Shown here piece by piece: positions 1-10,611 of a stretch of DNA of 64,000 nucleotides (positions within the stretch are counted from its first letter, which is position 1; every line of letters starts with the position of its first letter). The stretch spans positions 2,274,001 through 2,338,000 of the forward strand of contig NZ_CP091456.1 in NCBI RefSeq assembly GCF_023611925.1. The letters are read 5' to 3'. Made by a program: the position numbers and the translations under genes. A model generated the notes under the pieces. The model searched no databases, had not been told where the DNA came from, and was given only the letters and a program-made list of their open reading frames with translations. The DNA comes from Avibacterium sp. 20-132 (GTDB lineage Bacteria > Pseudomonadota > Gammaproteobacteria > Enterobacterales > Pasteurellaceae).

Positions 1-1423
1 TTGGATATTTAACAAAAGTCTCTTGTAAAATTTTCCCTTTTTCTATTAGATTTTCTCTAATATTTTTAAAATGATAATTCATATCAGGTATGCTAGATAT
101 ATTATGATAATTCCATTTTCCTTTTATAAAGTGGCATACTAATCTAAGTTTTGGTCTATCTATTTTTAATACATTATCAATTAAACTATTTAAATCTTCT
201 TTTTTTAATAAACCATTTTTCCCTCTAGCATATTTTACAAATCCATTTAAAATATTATAGATTAGAAACTCATTCTCCTCAATGCTGCTTTTAGGAGAGA
301 ATCTACCTTCTATAGTTGCTAAATCAGAATTTTTAGAAAAAACATCTGGTCCATGTAATTGAATATATCTAATATAGTAATCTTTTTCATATCCTTCTCT
401 AGCTCCAGAATCAGCAATTTTTTGGAAGTTATCAAATCCTTTTTTATATACAGATTGTAATGAAATGCTTCTAAAGCAATTCATAGAAACAATATATATC
501 AAATAAAGTATGTCTAAAAGCTTTCTCCTAGACTCACTTTTTCCGGATTTAAGATAATTTATCGTTATCCTATGAAATTCTAACTCTTTAAAAAACAACT
601 CTTCCTCTTCATAGTATTTAAAATTATCTTCAAAAAAAACATCGCAATAATCCTCATATTTTAATATTTTAATTAATAGATCGATTAGATGATTATACTC
701 TTTGTTATAATTTTCATTAATAATTAAAATAATTAATTTTTTTATAGTCTTAGATATAACTAATAACTTATGGTATGACTTTGGGGTTTTTAGAAAATAA
801 TCTGAACCATAATGTAAAAAAACATGTTCCTTATTAAAGTTTTCCTCTAAATAATTTCTTATAGAAGAGGGGGTTTCTAATGCCCAACTCCATAGTAATT
901 CTGCTGTTGTTGTTCCATTTAAATGGATATGTAGATCATTAAGCCCTACATTATTAATATAATGTTCAACGATAGGTTTCTTAGGTGATAAAATTCCTCT
1001 AAGTCCTCTAATATTACTCCTATTATTGCATAGATTACATAGCGCTAATATTGGCAAAAATGAATGGTTAGACATCCAGTTTTGCCAATCAGAAAAAAGA
1101 TTTAACTTTATGGAAGAATCTTCTTCTACATAAAAATCTTTTACTTCATATAGTAAAGCTAGTGATAAACAGGTTCTCTTTTTATATTTGCAGCATAGAC
1201 TATCCCAATAACTAGAAAAAATTCTATCGTTAAAATTGGAGTAGATACTTAAATGGTTATAGGTGATGAACTTTATTTTATTGATGTTAATGCTTTCAAC
1301 TCCTCTCCCATCCAAAATATTAATGCTTTCAACTCTTCTCTCATCTAAAATATAACTTAATAGATCTTCACATAACGATTTATATACTAATTGTGATGAA
1401 AGAATAAAATCATTTATTAACAT
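1..1423 (-). CDS. rdrB: RADAR adenosine deaminase RdrB, C-terminus beyond the left edge (partial)
   Basis: An open frame runs without a stop from the ATG at 1421-1423 to the window edge (474 codons). An AGAGGAAG ribosome site overlaps the end of the upstream gene, and the gap between the two is 12 bp. Seen: residues 161-170 read LNDLHIHLNG, the HxH zinc-binding strand of adenosine deaminase/amidohydrolase enzymes (His165, His167). Residues 371-377 read IEGRFSP, matching the E-x-R-[FY]-[SA]-P strand of adenosine deaminases, and 430-434 read CHFIK. The long insert between HxH and the ExRFSP strand, and the position directly after a large P-loop ATPase, are as in RdrB of RADAR, whose assembly with RdrA deaminates adenosine in nucleotides and/or RNA during phage infection. 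The remaining zinc His/Asp and catalytic Glu must lie outside the window. Codons are strongly AT-rich compared with mlc, bioD and asnS nearby. A less likely alternative is another ADA-like enzyme. Confidence 0.85.
   Translation of the reverse strand, partial: MLINDFILSSQLVYKSLCEDLLSYILDERRVESINILDGRGVESININKIKFITYNHLSIYSNFNDRIFSSYWDSLCCKYKKRTCLSLALLYEVKDFYVEEDSSIKLNLFSDWQNWMSNHSFLPILALCNLCNNRSNIRGLRGILSPKKPIVEHYINNVGLNDLHIHLNGTTTAELLWSWALETPSSIRNYLEENFNKEHVFLHYGSDYFLKTPKSYHKLLVISKTIKKLIILIINENYNKEYNHLIDLLIKILKYEDYCDVFFEDNFKYYEEEELFFKELEFHRITINYLKSGKSESRRKLLDILYLIYIVSMNCFRSISLQSVYKKGFDNFQKIADSGAREGYEKDYYIRYIQLHGPDVFSKNSDLATIEGRFSPKSSIEENEFLIYNILNGFVKYARGKNGLLKKEDLNSLIDNVLKIDRPKLRLVCHFIKGKWNYHNISSIPDMNYHFKNIRENLIEKGKILQETFVKYP
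1287..1352. repeat. 33-bp tandem duplication inside rdrB
   Basis: Two adjacent 33-bp units, 1287-1319 and 1320-1352, differ at only three positions. Each is exactly 11 codons, so the frame is kept. In the rdrB protein they encode two copies of a segment containing VESIN near residues 24-47. This looks like a fairly recent in-frame slippage or duplication in the N-terminal part, ahead of the catalytic HxH motif. Confidence 0.85.
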
Positions 1424-1435
1424 TTATTTCTTCCT

Positions 1436-4021
1436 CTACTTTTCGTTATACTTAAATGAAACTGGTGCTATCTTTGATATTGCCAGTTTTGATATTGGTG
1501 GTAAACCATCTTCATCAAGTTTATCAAGCTTTAGGTTATCTAAATAATTTTTCATCTTTTCATCTATCTTCAAGATTCCTTCAAGTATTTCATTTGCCAT
1601 TTTATCTTCTGTCATATATAAAAATGGATAAACTAATGGACAATTTACAATAGAATATGTTAATGGGAGATACTCTTTGAATTTATCTTCTAGCCTACTA
1701 TTTTTATCGTTATTTAGTACGTTTTTTATAGACTTTAAATTATTAATAAAATGCTTGATAGATGTTGATACATTACTAGCATTGGTCATAATATTAAAAA
1801 TATCATTGCTTCTATTATTAGAATAACGGCTCTCCTCTATTAATATAGAGTTGCAAACACCCCAAATAAATCTAGCAAATATTTCACTTGTATACAACCT
1901 TCTTTTTTTGTATTCTCTTTTTGCATTATCTGAAATATTATTTATAGAGTAGAATAATCTTGCCCATATCTTACCTAAACATAAAGATGAATAATTAAAT
2001 TCTAATGTTTTAGTATCTTCACGCCAGGACAGTAATAATTTTATGAGGTTGTCCTCATATTCATTATTTTGAGTATTATTACTTTCATTATCTTCATTGT
2101 CTCCATCATCATTTTCATTACTATCATCTATATTATATCTTTCTGGCAAGAATCCAGAATATGTATTAAATGCACTTAATCTTCCAAGCTTATCTTTTAG
2201 TTCATTTTCCTCGTTACATTCTAGTAATTCAGCTATTGAAGCTAAGAAAGCATATATAGATACGCAATCTCTAGTTTCTGTATGAATTCGTATCCTATTA
2301 GAAGAAATTAAAAATGCTTCTTTTGTTATATAATCAATAATATTATCTGGTATATGCTCAGAAAATCTCTCTAAAGATGATAGATGTTTTCTTTTCAATC
2401 CTGGATTACTTCCTCGTCTATTAAGTCTGATGATTCCATTTAAAACTCCTTGATGGCTTTTCATTTTAGGTGATACAATACCACTATATTTTTCCATAAT
2501 GTTTCTTGGGCTAGAGTTGTTATTTAAACCAATGTAATCAAAGTATTTAGTGTAATTTTCACTTTCAACAAAGTATAAATAAATATTTGCAGGAGAACCT
2601 AGTAACAACATAGAATTTATTGCCATTGAAACACTATCCTCTTTTCTACTATTACTTTTTGAATAAGAAGAAACTAAAGATGACAAGAAAATTTTAGCAA
2701 TATTATAGCTCGAATCATTTCCTTCAACTCGACAATAAAACCCCGTATCCATATCATTATGCTCATATATAACACTAAATATATTTGAAGCTATATTTAC
2801 AATAGAAGAAGGAAAGTTTTCTAAAATGTTTACACCTATTTTCTCTTTTAGTAAGTCACTCAAAAATATATCTTTTATTGCCATTGAAAAAGAACTAACA
2901 TCATTGTTTGATAATAGATATTTGATCAACTGTACAATAGTTCTTATAGGTTGACTCAAAATAAAATTATTTATTTCCCCGATATAGTCATCATGTATTG
3001 AAAGATATTTTTTTAATTCATTTTTAAGAAATGAAACTAGAAGCTCCTCTTTATTGGGTTCCATACTTGTTTTTAAGTAAATACTATACTTATTCTCTTT
3101 ATTTATTTCATGTAAGTTCATTAGTTTTATTCTTTGATGAATTGGAAGTGTTTTTATAATATATTGTTGTTCCAATTGATAAAGCATATTTCCTTCAAAT
3201 GGGCGACTTATAGTTTTATCTTTTATTTCATTAGCTTTATTTACTCCAACTATGTAACTATATAATTGTATATCTCCTGATACTAAAACAACCAATTTAG
3301 GATGAGTCAGATAGCATCTAATTGTTTCTAATAATTCATAGGCTTTATCGGTTCTAGTATCTATATCATCTATAGCTATCATTAAGAGTTTTATATTATA
3401 TTTTTCTATAATAAGATTTATTAAATCATGAATCTTTTTCTCTAATTCTTGACCACTGGTTGATCTATTTAAAGCTTTCGAGAAAAACCAAGATGTATCC
3501 TTCTTATCATTAATAATAGAAAGTTGTTCTATTCCATTAGAAATTTCTTGTAATCCTTTAAGCCATTCATTATCAAAATCATGTTTGATTAATGGAGATG
3601 ATATTATATTATATGAGTCTACAAACTTATGTAATTTAGCAATAATATCAGTCAAAATATGTTGTTGGCTTACTATTGTTGTAGGATCAATAAAAGCACA
3701 TGGAACAATTCCTTTTAATTGTTCATCTGACTGAGAAAACATATCAAATACAGTAGTAAAAATATATTTTAGAAATGTTGTTTTTCCTGCACCTCGTTCT
3801 CCGTCAATAAATATAGTGTTATTTCTTCTTGGTAAATAAATATTTTCTAAATATTTTTTATCTTTTGATAAAGCTTCATTACTTTCTGAACTTTTATTTA
3901 TTGACATTAGTATACCTTTTAGTTTATCTAATGCCTTATATTGCAAAAAGCTTTCATCATTGCTAATGATATTATTAGCATCTATATTTAAATCAATAAA
4001 TATTTTACTATTGTTACTCAT
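1436..4021 (-). CDS. rdrA: RADAR ATPase RdrA
   Basis: An 861-residue P-loop ATPase. Seen: Walker A GERGAGKTT at residues 74-82, Walker B LLMIAIDDID at 212-221, then LVVLVSGD at 243-250 (sensor-like strand). The remaining ~600 residues are helical and charged, with an Asp/Glu/Asn-rich stretch around 640-665. The start ATG has AGGAG upstream. In RADAR, RdrA is an AAA+-like ATPase that assembles into a ring and works with the RdrB deaminase encoded directly downstream; that order and the 12-bp spacing are present here. The gene is very AT-rich, unlike bioD just upstream, which suggests horizontal acquisition. On its own it could be called a KAP/AAA-type NTPase. The RdrA assignment rests on size, motif placement and the adjacent deaminase. 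Confidence 0.8.
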   Translation of the reverse strand: MSNNSKIFIDLNIDANNIISNDESFLQYKALDKLKGILMSINKSSESNEALSKDKKYLENIYLPRRNNTIFIDGERGAGKTTFLKYIFTTVFDMFSQSDEQLKGIVPCAFIDPTTIVSQQHILTDIIAKLHKFVDSYNIISSPLIKHDFDNEWLKGLQEISNGIEQLSIINDKKDTSWFFSKALNRSTSGQELEKKIHDLINLIIEKYNIKLLMIAIDDIDTRTDKAYELLETIRCYLTHPKLVVLVSGDIQLYSYIVGVNKANEIKDKTISRPFEGNMLYQLEQQYIIKTLPIHQRIKLMNLHEINKENKYSIYLKTSMEPNKEELLVSFLKNELKKYLSIHDDYIGEINNFILSQPIRTIVQLIKYLLSNNDVSSFSMAIKDIFLSDLLKEKIGVNILENFPSSIVNIASNIFSVIYEHNDMDTGFYCRVEGNDSSYNIAKIFLSSLVSSYSKSNSRKEDSVSMAINSMLLLGSPANIYLYFVESENYTKYFDYIGLNNNSSPRNIMEKYSGIVSPKMKSHQGVLNGIIRLNRRGSNPGLKRKHLSSLERFSEHIPDNIIDYITKEAFLISSNRIRIHTETRDCVSIYAFLASIAELLECNEENELKDKLGRLSAFNTYSGFLPERYNIDDSNENDDGDNEDNESNNTQNNEYEDNLIKLLLSWREDTKTLEFNYSSLCLGKIWARLFYSINNISDNAKREYKKRRLYTSEIFARFIWGVCNSILIEESRYSNNRSNDIFNIMTNASNVSTSIKHFINNLKSIKNVLNNDKNSRLEDKFKEYLPLTYSIVNCPLVYPFLYMTEDKMANEILEGILKIDEKMKNYLDNLKLDKLDEDGLPPISKLAISKIAPVSFKYNEK

Positions 4022-4055
4022 AAAATTCTCCTATGTTTATAAATTATATATTCGT

Positions 4056-4781
4056 TTACCTCACCCATTCCGTTTGCAGATAAGTCAAACGCTCAAGATT
4101 GGTGATGTAATGCCCGAGTTCTTGTTCTTCAGGACGATGAACATAGGGAATTTGCCCAAGTAATGGGGCGTCAATTTTTTCGCTGAGCATTTCAATCATT
4201 TCTGCATAATGGGCTAAACCGGGATTAATGCGATTGGCTATCCAGCCTAATAAGGGTAAGCCTGATTGTTGAATGGATTGTGCCGTCAGCAAGGCGTGAT
4301 TAATGCAGCCTTCTTTAATGCCAACTACAAGCACGACTGGCATTTTGTGCGAGATTGCCCAACTGGCAAAGCTATATTCTTTATTCATTGGGGTAAGCCA
4401 ACCAAATGCCCCCTCCACTAGCACAGATTGATAACGCTGAGTAAGTGCGGTGAGATCGGCGTTAATTTTTTTTATATCAATGCGTTCTCCGTCTTCACTT
4501 AACATTGGCAAACTGTGGGAAAAGCTATAACTATTCACGTCTCGGTAGGTTACATTCTCTTTTGTGGCGTCAATTAAGGTTAGGACATCAGAATTATTTT
4601 CTTGTCCATAATCACTTTCTATTGGGCTTTCACGATAAGCCCAATCCTCTTGGCAACACGCAATCGGTTTATAACCTACAATTTGAATACCTTGATTTTG
4701 CAAGGCTTGGATAATGGCACGACTGGATACCGTTTTTCCTACATTGGTATCCGTTCCTGTAACAAAAAAGCAGCTCATCAT
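4056..4781 (-). CDS. bioD: Dethiobiotin synthetase (BioD2/YnfK-type)
   Basis: 241 residues, the usual BioD length. The N-terminal P-loop TGTDTNVGKT (residues 8-17) and the YKPI motif (37-40) identify the family, which carboxylates diaminopelargonic acid to dethiobiotin with ATP in biotin synthesis. The second conserved loop, normally VEGAGG, reads VEGAFG at 122-127, so one glycine is replaced by phenylalanine. The gene lies just downstream of an mlc-like gene in the same direction, the arrangement of ynfK-dgsA in E. coli, so it is probably the second BioD paralogue and its biosynthetic activity is uncertain. An AAGGA ribosome site precedes the tandem ATG ATG start. rdrA begins 34 bp after its stop. 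Confidence 0.85.
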   Translation of the reverse strand: MMSCFFVTGTDTNVGKTVSSRAIIQALQNQGIQIVGYKPIACCQEDWAYRESPIESDYGQENNSDVLTLIDATKENVTYRDVNSYSFSHSLPMLSEDGERIDIKKINADLTALTQRYQSVLVEGAFGWLTPMNKEYSFASWAISHKMPVVLVVGIKEGCINHALLTAQSIQQSGLPLLGWIANRINPGLAHYAEMIEMLSEKIDAPLLGQIPYVHRPEEQELGHYITNLERLTYLQTEWVR

Positions 4782-8574: not shown

Positions 8575-10611
8575 TCATTCAACCAGTTTCTGTAACAACA
8601 ACGCCAATCCACTTTGTCGTTTGGTGGGATTTCTTACCGCGGTTTTCCAGCTTTGCTCCGTGCTAAATACGGTGGCTTGGTTCTTGGCACGGGTAATTCC
8701 CGTGTAAACCAATTCACGGGATAAAATCGGGCTGGGTTCAGTGGGCAGTACCATAAAGGCGTGGTCAAATTCAGAGCCTTGTGATTTATGCACTGTCATT
8801 GCAAAGGCGGTTTCGTGGCGTGGAATACGGCTGGCTAATTCCCGTTTGCCATTTTCAAAATAAAAATGCCCTTTTAGCTGCCCCTGTTCATTAGGACTGA
8901 GTAAATATAACCCAATATCCCCATTATATAAGCCCACATTGCGATCATTTTGCGTAATCATAATGGGTTTGCCGAGATAATGTTCACGCGCTTGATTAAA
9001 TTGCACTAAGCCCTTTGCACGCAGCCCCTCTGCAATACGTTGGTTGAGCTGTTCACTGCCTAACTCCCCTACACGTAATGCGGTGAGGTAACGGACTTTA
9101 TTAAATGCGGTGAAAATTTGCTGAATTTTTTCTGAATCTAAAGGTTGATTTTGCGCCGTAACTTGCTGAATTAAGGTTAAAAAATCGGCGTAATTTTGCA
9201 CCGCACTTTTCACCACCACATTGGCACAATATGGCTGATATGCCAAGCTATTCACCTCCCCTTTGTGTGTCAATTGCATAAAATCAACGAGGGTTAAAGG
9301 TAAGGTTGTTACAACATCACTTTTCTTCAAATCTCCTGCTTGTAGCAACTGCCAGCTTTCTTCTGCGTTGCCTTGATTAATCAATTTCGCTAACTGCCCA
9401 ATGGCAGAATGTTCATCAAAACGATGACTTTGGGTTAAATGACAAAGATGATCACGAATTGGATTGCCTTGTGTTATCGCAGACAAATGTTGCCCTGTGG
9501 TTTGTTGTAAATACGCCACAAAATCGGGGCTGTAGCCTTGCGTCAGAAATTTGCCTAATTCTGCCAAAATTGCCCCTGCCTCCACGGAGGCAAGCTGATC
9601 TTTATCTCCCAATAAAATTAATTTGGTTTGTGGTTTTAAGGCTTGCAACAATTTCGCCATTAGGGATAAATCGATCATTGAAGATTCATCTACCACAAGC
9701 ACATCAAGCAATAATGGGTTCTGTTTATTATGCTTGGGCATATCTTCAAAGAAGCGTACGCCAAGTAGTCGATGTAAGGTTTCTGGCTGTGTCGGTATGG
9801 CAGCGATTAACGCCTCTGGCAACGCCAATTCTGCTTTTAAGCGAGCTAAGGAATTATCCATACTCTCTTTTAGCCGAGCGGTGGCTTTCCCTGTAGGGGC
9901 AACCAGTTTTATACGTAAACCTTGCTGATATAAATCCTGTAAGGCAAGTAATAATCGTGTTACGGTGGTGGTTTTGCCTGTACCGGGACCGCCACTGATT
10001 AGGGTAAAAGGCTGTTTAATTGCCATTGCAACAGCAATTTCTTGCCAATTAATTTGTTTTGGTTGTGCGGAATGAGGAAAATATTTTTGCAAAATTGTTG
10101 CGATGGCTTGGGGATCAAAAGTGCGGTCAAAAATACCTGAATTTTGCCCCGCACTTTGCTCTACATTTTGTTCCGTGCGTTGAATGGAATGGGCAAAATA
10201 TTCTGCAACGCGGTATTCATCTTGCCAGATACGATAAAAATACAGCGCGTTAAACTGAAACACCAAAGGGGCGATTTTTTCTTGCGGCTGTGTGGTAAAA
10301 GCAATGTGTTGCTGTAAACAATCTTGCCATTGGGTAAGGGGTAAATAATCAATTTTGGCATTGATTTTTTCTATATATTCCCATTCTTGCTGAGGTAATG
10401 GTAATAAACTGGCTAAATTAGCCTCAAGCACTAAACAACTATGCCCCTGCAAATAAGAATAATTGCACAATGCCGCCAATAAAATCGCTAAATTTTGTTG
10501 GCATAAGGAATACCCTTTGCCTTGCTGTTTTTCGGCAATCAAGCGTGCGAAATGGTAATCCCCTTGGCTAAATATGCCTTTTTCTTGAAGTGCTTTAATT
10601 AGGCTGAGCAT
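8575..10611 (-). CDS. recD: Exodeoxyribonuclease V alpha subunit RecD
   Basis: 678 residues from the ATG at 10609-10611, which shares one base with the recB stop (TAATG), a usual sign of translational coupling. Seen: Walker A GGPGTGKTT at about residues 207-215, a helicase II DES motif (VLVVDESSMIDLS) and C-terminal superfamily-1 motifs (TVHKSQGSEFDHA, LVYTGITRAK). RecD is the fast 5'-3' helicase of RecBCD, used in double-strand break repair and degradation of linear DNA. An upstream ATG (10647) would extend the frame into recB and is less likely. recC is not in the window. Confidence 0.95.
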   Translation of the reverse strand: MLSLIKALQEKGIFSQGDYHFARLIAEKQQGKGYSLCQQNLAILLAALCNYSYLQGHSCLVLEANLASLLPLPQQEWEYIEKINAKIDYLPLTQWQDCLQQHIAFTTQPQEKIAPLVFQFNALYFYRIWQDEYRVAEYFAHSIQRTEQNVEQSAGQNSGIFDRTFDPQAIATILQKYFPHSAQPKQINWQEIAVAMAIKQPFTLISGGPGTGKTTTVTRLLLALQDLYQQGLRIKLVAPTGKATARLKESMDNSLARLKAELALPEALIAAIPTQPETLHRLLGVRFFEDMPKHNKQNPLLLDVLVVDESSMIDLSLMAKLLQALKPQTKLILLGDKDQLASVEAGAILAELGKFLTQGYSPDFVAYLQQTTGQHLSAITQGNPIRDHLCHLTQSHRFDEHSAIGQLAKLINQGNAEESWQLLQAGDLKKSDVVTTLPLTLVDFMQLTHKGEVNSLAYQPYCANVVVKSAVQNYADFLTLIQQVTAQNQPLDSEKIQQIFTAFNKVRYLTALRVGELGSEQLNQRIAEGLRAKGLVQFNQAREHYLGKPIMITQNDRNVGLYNGDIGLYLLSPNEQGQLKGHFYFENGKRELASRIPRHETAFAMTVHKSQGSEFDHAFMVLPTEPSPILSRELVYTGITRAKNQATVFSTEQSWKTAVRNPTKRQSGLALLLQKLVE

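Follow-up and report, generated by a model that had tools for sequence, protein, structure and literature searches.

Does the left edge of a 64,000-nucleotide stretch of the Avibacterium sp. 20-132 chromosome hold a RADAR anti-phage system, in which an ATPase (RdrA) is paired with an adenosine deaminase (RdrB), and what would such a system do in a member of the Pasteurellaceae? This stretch, hereafter the window (G000:C1:2274001-2338000; contig NZ_CP091456.1), belongs to a single-contig genome of 2,585,160 bases, and an earlier note made from its letters had proposed a RADAR locus cut by the window boundary. The remainder of rdrB was read from the adjoining 10 kilobases (kb) of the same contig (L002, in which window base 1 is base 10001). 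We conclude, with a probability of about 90%, that the locus is a complete stand-alone rdrA-rdrB cassette, likely acquired horizontally, whose RdrA is predicted to sense phage and to drive the conversion of (d)ATP to (d)ITP by RdrB. This conclusion rests on unbroken adjacent genes, retained catalytic residues, matching folds, conservation of the partner gene, and a low guanine-plus-cytosine (GC) insertion that is absent from congeners.

The gene pair and its assignment to RADAR

The two genes lie in tandem on one strand, separated by 12 base pairs (bp), and both are unbroken in this genome, with full-length frames free of stops. As the note had described, a P-loop ATPase of 861 residues with the motifs GERGAGKTT and IAIDDID begins at an ATG and is followed by a deaminase frame that carries LNDLHIHLNG and IEGRFSP and stays open from its own ATG to the window edge. 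Leftward extension supplied the remaining deaminase residues on which the note had let its proposal depend: rdrB runs on to a total of 824 residues and a stop codon, its 3' end lying at G000:C1:2272949 (L002:8949-11423, minus strand), 1,052 bp past the edge, and this outer part contains, in order, YHVGEDF, RIGHATAIG and LGSDDPGIF, bringing in H515, E518, H547 and the pair D757/D758.

Profile and sequence comparisons gave RADAR as the best match for both proteins, with no unrelated family scoring better. RdrA matched its PADLOC profile at E 2e-27 (residues 24-368) and its NCBIfam profile at 4.3e-47; the corresponding values for RdrB were 1.3e-21, with the best stretch at residues 476-611, and 1.1e-30. 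Against solved sequences, phmmer aligned RdrA with solved RdrA over residues 64-803 (E = 8.4e-44) and RdrB with solved RdrB over residues 64-806, corresponding to 44-797 of the solved chain (E = 1.2e-94); at E <= 1 each protein matched RADAR chains only, two distinct sequences apiece. RdrB residues 1-63 gave no alignment, and insertions around the deaminase core were compared by sequence over residues 64-806. An RdrA profile reached the solved sequences at E 3e-115 and also touched three helicase-type chains, over the P-loop only, at E 0.001. In Pfam, RdrA had nothing above cut-off and matched generic P-loop models weakly, and RdrB matched A_deaminase above cut-off (29.7 against 27, E 4.6e-07); the TIGR01430 adenosine deaminase model matched RdrB at 5.1e-08. 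Two internal repeats were also seen: a 28-bp repeat pair inside rdrA, and a 33-bp tandem repeat in rdrB (window 1284-1349) that duplicates 11 residues, in frame, within the N-terminal extension of the protein.

Structure predictions pointed the same way. The AlphaFold2 model of RdrA, built with 18 sequences (predicted local distance difference test [pLDDT] 78.0, predicted template modelling score 0.77), was compared with the PDB by Foldseek, and its top 20 matches were all RdrA, led by 8hr8_A (E 4.4e-35, template modelling [TM] score 0.77). TM scores were 0.72-0.79 for 19 of these chains and 0.36 for the twentieth, Streptococcus suis RdrA; the matches extend over about 930 alignment columns and include the helical C-terminal lobe, and the first fold outside RdrA was Cdc6/Orc1 at E 7.6e-4. 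For RdrB, the protein modelled was P0003, a database entry of 549 residues that is nearly identical with residues 276-824 (AlphaFold2, pLDDT 80.6). Its first eight matches were RdrB chains (TM 0.74-0.77; 8fnv_A at E 1.2e-30, TM 0.74), after which ordinary adenosine deaminases appeared from E 6.2e-5. By sequence and predicted structure, we thus assign the pair to RADAR, in agreement with the note, as a distant member of a known system and not a new one.

The partner genes also stay together elsewhere. A scan of species genomes that combined an RdrA alignment with two short peptide patterns from the Walker regions yielded 28 other loci, which are a sample and no census because the scan was pattern-based; an earlier scan of genome contigs that used RdrB by itself had yielded no relative. 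In 26 of the 28, RdrA is followed on the same strand by an RdrB-like frame. The two exceptions are L023, which ends at its contig edge, and L008 from Orbus hercynius, where a broken RdrA (L008:8220-10431) has no RdrB match in the fetched locus and is likely a decayed RADAR. Among the 26, RdrB is in four pieces in Kluyvera (L017:10551-12884) and RdrA in two in Methylovulum (L028:7959-10468), both likely decaying systems or sequencing errors; in L030 just short pieces remain, and L031 breaks off at the end of its contig.

An unrelated STAND/AAA ATPase standing beside a metabolic or CARF-type (Cad1) adenosine deaminase could produce the weak generic P-loop matches, the TIGR01430 and A_deaminase scores and a match to the CARF_ADA model at E 0.0027. 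We rejected both forms of this explanation and regard it as extremely improbable: matches to such ATPase and amidohydrolase families are far weaker than those to RdrA and RdrB, ordinary deaminases lie well behind RdrB by fold, RdrB follows RdrA in nearly all related loci, and Pfam at E up to 1 finds A_deaminase only, with no CARF domain. Cad1, a type III CRISPR protein in which an adenosine deaminase is fused to a CARF domain, resembles the pair in its antiviral deamination of ATP to ITP (PMC11645235), a reaction that is only predicted here; it differs in that our deaminase lacks a CARF domain and has an AAA+ ATPase as its partner.

Table 1. Positions of the RADAR genes and adjoining features in the window.
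Feature	Position	Strand	Description	Basis
rdrA	1436..4021	-	Complete; 861-residue AAA+ ATPase with helical C-terminal lobe; ATG start	Frame, profile, alignment, model
rdrB, 5' part	1..1423	-	474 of 824 residues in the window; HxH (H165/H167) and EGRFSP	
rdrA stop to rdrB ATG	1424..1435	-	12-bp gap; contains AGGAAG, a probable ribosome site	
bioD stop to rdrA ATG	4022..4055	-	Right edge of the cassette: 34 bp, with AGGAG before the rdrA ATG	
bioD-like gene	4056..4781	-	Pfam AAA_26; right flank, outside the system; marks the insertion site	Kept in 6 of 6 congeners

Active sites and the predicted reaction

Both catalytic sites are present in the alignments with the E. coli proteins. The AAA+ core of RdrA has Walker A (G79-K80-T81), Walker B (D218-D219), sensor 1 (D250) and sensor 2 (R360), which align with E. 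coli G81 K82 T83, D221 D222, D253 and R377. In RdrB, the zinc tetrad H165, H167, H515 and H547 and the catalytic glutamate E518 correspond to E. coli H152, H154, H498, H530 and E501, the residues named for that protein (PMC9994260). These five are kept in all 24 rows of an alignment of RdrB with the 23 relatives from the 28 loci whose frames exceed 600 residues, and the conserved pair D757-D758 is kept in 23, the exception (L025) running to its contig end. Across 25 RdrA rows the Walker residues and sensor 2 are invariant, a count that is biased because Walker patterns were among the means of finding these loci, and the sensor 1 aspartate is kept in 21, ours among them. The Walker and both sensor positions are also invariant in 18 of 18 aligned database proteins from a word-based search; the protein searches scored just the 7,993 and 7,996 candidates with the most shared words.

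In E. coli, heptameric RdrA docks on dodecameric RdrB, which makes (d)ITP from (d)ATP during infection; poisoning of the nucleotide pool is the proposed way in which phage growth is halted, and the trigger is stated as unknown (PMC9994260). By analogy, the Avibacterium pair would presumably be expressed, assemble as in E. coli and be triggered by phages of its host: the RdrA ATPase ring would sense infection and drive the RdrB deaminase shell, which would deaminate ATP to ITP and dATP to dITP, and the altered pool would stop the phage. Given both catalytic sites and the E. coli findings, infection-triggered conversion of (d)ATP to (d)ITP is the likeliest action.

The main rival to this nucleotide-pool model is the first published one, in which RADAR acts chiefly by RNA adenosine editing, RdrA loading RNA that RdrB deaminates until growth arrests. 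It draws on the original description of RADAR, as summarised in PMC7699616, on the titles of the solved RdrA rings 8hra and 8hrb ('in RNA-loading state'), and on a weak A-to-G signal that Citrobacter rodentium RADAR left at select sites (PMC9994260). In the same study, E. coli RADAR left no strong A-to-G signature while defending its cells, purified RdrB did not deaminate a hairpin RNA, and ITP and dITP rose massively; moreover, the deaminases that the P0003 model matches after the RdrB chains are of the mononucleotide type. The Avibacterium sequence does not itself discriminate between the two models, and on the published evidence we consider RNA editing unlikely to be the chief activity and keep to the nucleotide-pool model.

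Relatives, contact residues and observations against the assignment

Separate trees of the two proteins were built from this locus and the 22 others in which both exceed 600 residues (L008, L017, L023, L028, L030 and L031 were dropped). In each tree our protein belongs to a clade of five rows, the same in both, with support of 97/96 for RdrA and 100/99 for RdrB; its other members are Halomonas sp. SpR1 (L009), a Neisseriaceae metagenome-assembled genome (MAG; L005), Proteus cibi (L007) and Marinagarivorans algicola (L006). The branching order within the clade is not settled by either tree. In the RdrB tree this clade stands beside the E. coli-like clade (100/98 for both together), a placement on which the RdrA tree does not decide. 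The four companion pairs share with ours the tandem arrangement and identities of 33-36% (RdrA) and 36-41% (RdrB); they differ in host, and our RdrA sits on a long branch.

Compared with E. coli RADAR (PDB 8fnt, 8fnv, 8fnw) and its close relative from Buttiauxella brennerae (L012), the pair shares the rdrA-rdrB order and the short gap between the genes, an AAA+ core that carries the sensors and a helical C-terminal lobe in RdrA, the zinc tetrad, catalytic glutamate and DD pair in RdrB, and the overall fold. It differs in belonging to a separate clade, with identities to L012 of just 22.2% (RdrA) and 30.0% (RdrB), in the length of RdrA (861 residues against 947 in the solved chain), and in the replacement of residues at the docking and three-fold interfaces.

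Several observations weigh against the reading set out at the start. Each PADLOC profile is matched over just part of its length, and the curated cut-offs of the NCBIfam equivalogs NF041743 and NF041744 (600 and 800) are not reached, at 161 bits for RdrA and 106.9 for RdrB. None of five other RADAR pairs drawn from the 28 loci reaches these cut-offs either, and L012 is among the five: it scores 122.6 and 111.2, although its RdrB and the solved E. coli RdrB align end-to-end (1,633 bits) and its RdrA matches solved RdrA at 1,071 bits. The cut-offs are therefore no bar to the assignment, and we file the pair under RADAR at large, outside the two equivalogs. Both of our rows were also flagged for unusual amino-acid make-up, and RdrA for its long branch, which leaves the place of these proteins in the trees unsure.

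The contact residues also depart from the E. coli pattern. Changes to K150, E151 and R162 of E. coli RdrA, which serve docking, and to E595-E597 of RdrB, at the three-fold contact, impaired or abolished defence (PMC9994260). The positions that align with them here, in stretches where the alignment is weak, are D150, N151 and N162 in RdrA and S614, K615 and K616 in RdrB, the latter facing residues that form the E. coli shell. With docking and shell-contact residues replaced, the assembly may differ from that of E. coli. Of the 24 other RdrA rows, 8 retain K-E-R: seven from the E. coli-like clade, to which L012 belongs, and L017, which is outside the tree. Of the 23 other RdrB rows, 6 have glutamate at each of the two scored columns, and all 6 belong to the E. 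coli-like clade. This distribution indicates that the K-E-R and glutamate contacts belong to one subclade and are not family-wide. One might go further and see in the Avibacterium, Halomonas, Proteus, Marinagarivorans and Neisseriaceae MAG pairs a second gammaproteobacterial-type lineage that has rebuilt its docking and shell contacts, keeping the same chemistry in a different geometry; we offer this as a tentative and rather doubtful idea.

Finally, two near-identical database proteins, P0003 (RdrB, 549 residues) and P0123 (RdrA, 648 residues; named as from Avibacterium sp. 20-126), both lack the N-terminus, and each lies on a contig of 2,378,610 bases. Both genes may be truncated in a sister strain, or the short entries may be an effect of gene calling; the shortened pair hints that the system can be lost. 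Together with the broken copies elsewhere (L008, L017, L028), these proteins would fit a decaying or inactive remnant. In the genome analysed here, the full-length, stop-free frames and the retained catalytic residues argue for an intact system, and we judge a remnant very unlikely.

The cassette, its insertion site and its rarity

The cassette spans about 5.2 kb between a histidine-phosphatase gene and the AAA_26 gene on the right, which we take to be bioD. Its GC content is 26.0%, compared with 39% for the surrounding stretch, and third-position GC is 17% compared with 34-38% in four flanking genes. All six congeners lack the cassette and keep the flanking genes in unchanged order. In five of them, the coding ends of the phosphatase and bioD genes are separated by a spacer of 121-141 bp that contains an inverted pair of a 9-base motif, AAGTGCGGT, which we take, in name and role, to be an uptake motif. 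The sixth (G026) has a spacer of 1,065 bp with no such motif, and a 278-residue frame sits in this interval (L049:7455-8291) that resembles, we presume, a formyltetrahydrofolate deformylase; the site thus seems variable among congeners. DNA homology to the five restarts at the bioD stop codon, and to the sixth 15 bases further in.

Given the low GC, the low third-position GC and the absence from all six congeners, the cassette was likely acquired horizontally from another bacterium, perhaps by natural transformation. The uptake motif occurs 34 times in the window against 0.42 copies expected and is absent from positions 1-4021; across the cassette, no copy was found against 3.0 expected (P 0.05), an absence that on its own is too weak a sign to establish a foreign origin. 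Apart from rdrA and rdrB, the inserted 5.2 kb contains no frame of at least 80 residues and, therefore, no integrase or transposase; no repeats of at least 16 bp, a sign of transposons, were found at its ends. A scan of the cassette and its edges against Rfam gave no match at gathering score, and a promoter scan was uninformative because its 42 sites equal the 41.9 found in shuffles. RADAR subtypes can carry third and fourth genes, rdrC and rdrD, encoding Csx27 or SLATT proteins (PMC7699616). No such extra gene is present among the cassette's frames, and the neighbours are the BioD-like and histidine-phosphatase genes, so the locus is of the stand-alone subtype.

Placement in the Pasteurellaceae holds, as the note had supposed: a 99% identical RdrA in the database comes from Avibacterium. 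Among 140 Pasteurellaceae genomes, RdrB was found in one, its own, and in none of the 139 genomes of other species. The RdrA profile matched five, and we read the four others as not RdrA, since they cover 29-73 profile positions around the P-loop in frames of 166-178 residues. Across the class, a loose first pass that may have missed members gave 1 of 369 genomes at E 1e-20, this one included. Such rarity is expected, as RADAR was reported in 270 of about 38,000 genomes (PMC9994260). Plasmids carry RdrB in 7 of 72,556 records and RdrA in six of those seven, one being annotated rdrA/rdrB; a tblastn search of 50,697 phage records, made with RdrB and not RdrA, gave no match. A literature search on RADAR in Pasteurellaceae and on Avibacterium phage defence returned only two Aggregatibacter papers, unrelated by title, and the main text of PMC9994260, as distinct from its supplementary table of the 270 genomes, names neither Pasteurellaceae nor Avibacterium. 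We make no claim to a first report of RADAR in either.

These results place RADAR in a family where it is rare, and the empty site in congeners shows the bounds of the cassette. For the RADAR family more widely, the NCBIfam cut-offs miss its pairs, as none of the six tested (ours and the five others, an E. coli-type one included) passes, and a distant pair with differing contact residues is useful for testing which contacts RADAR assembly needs.

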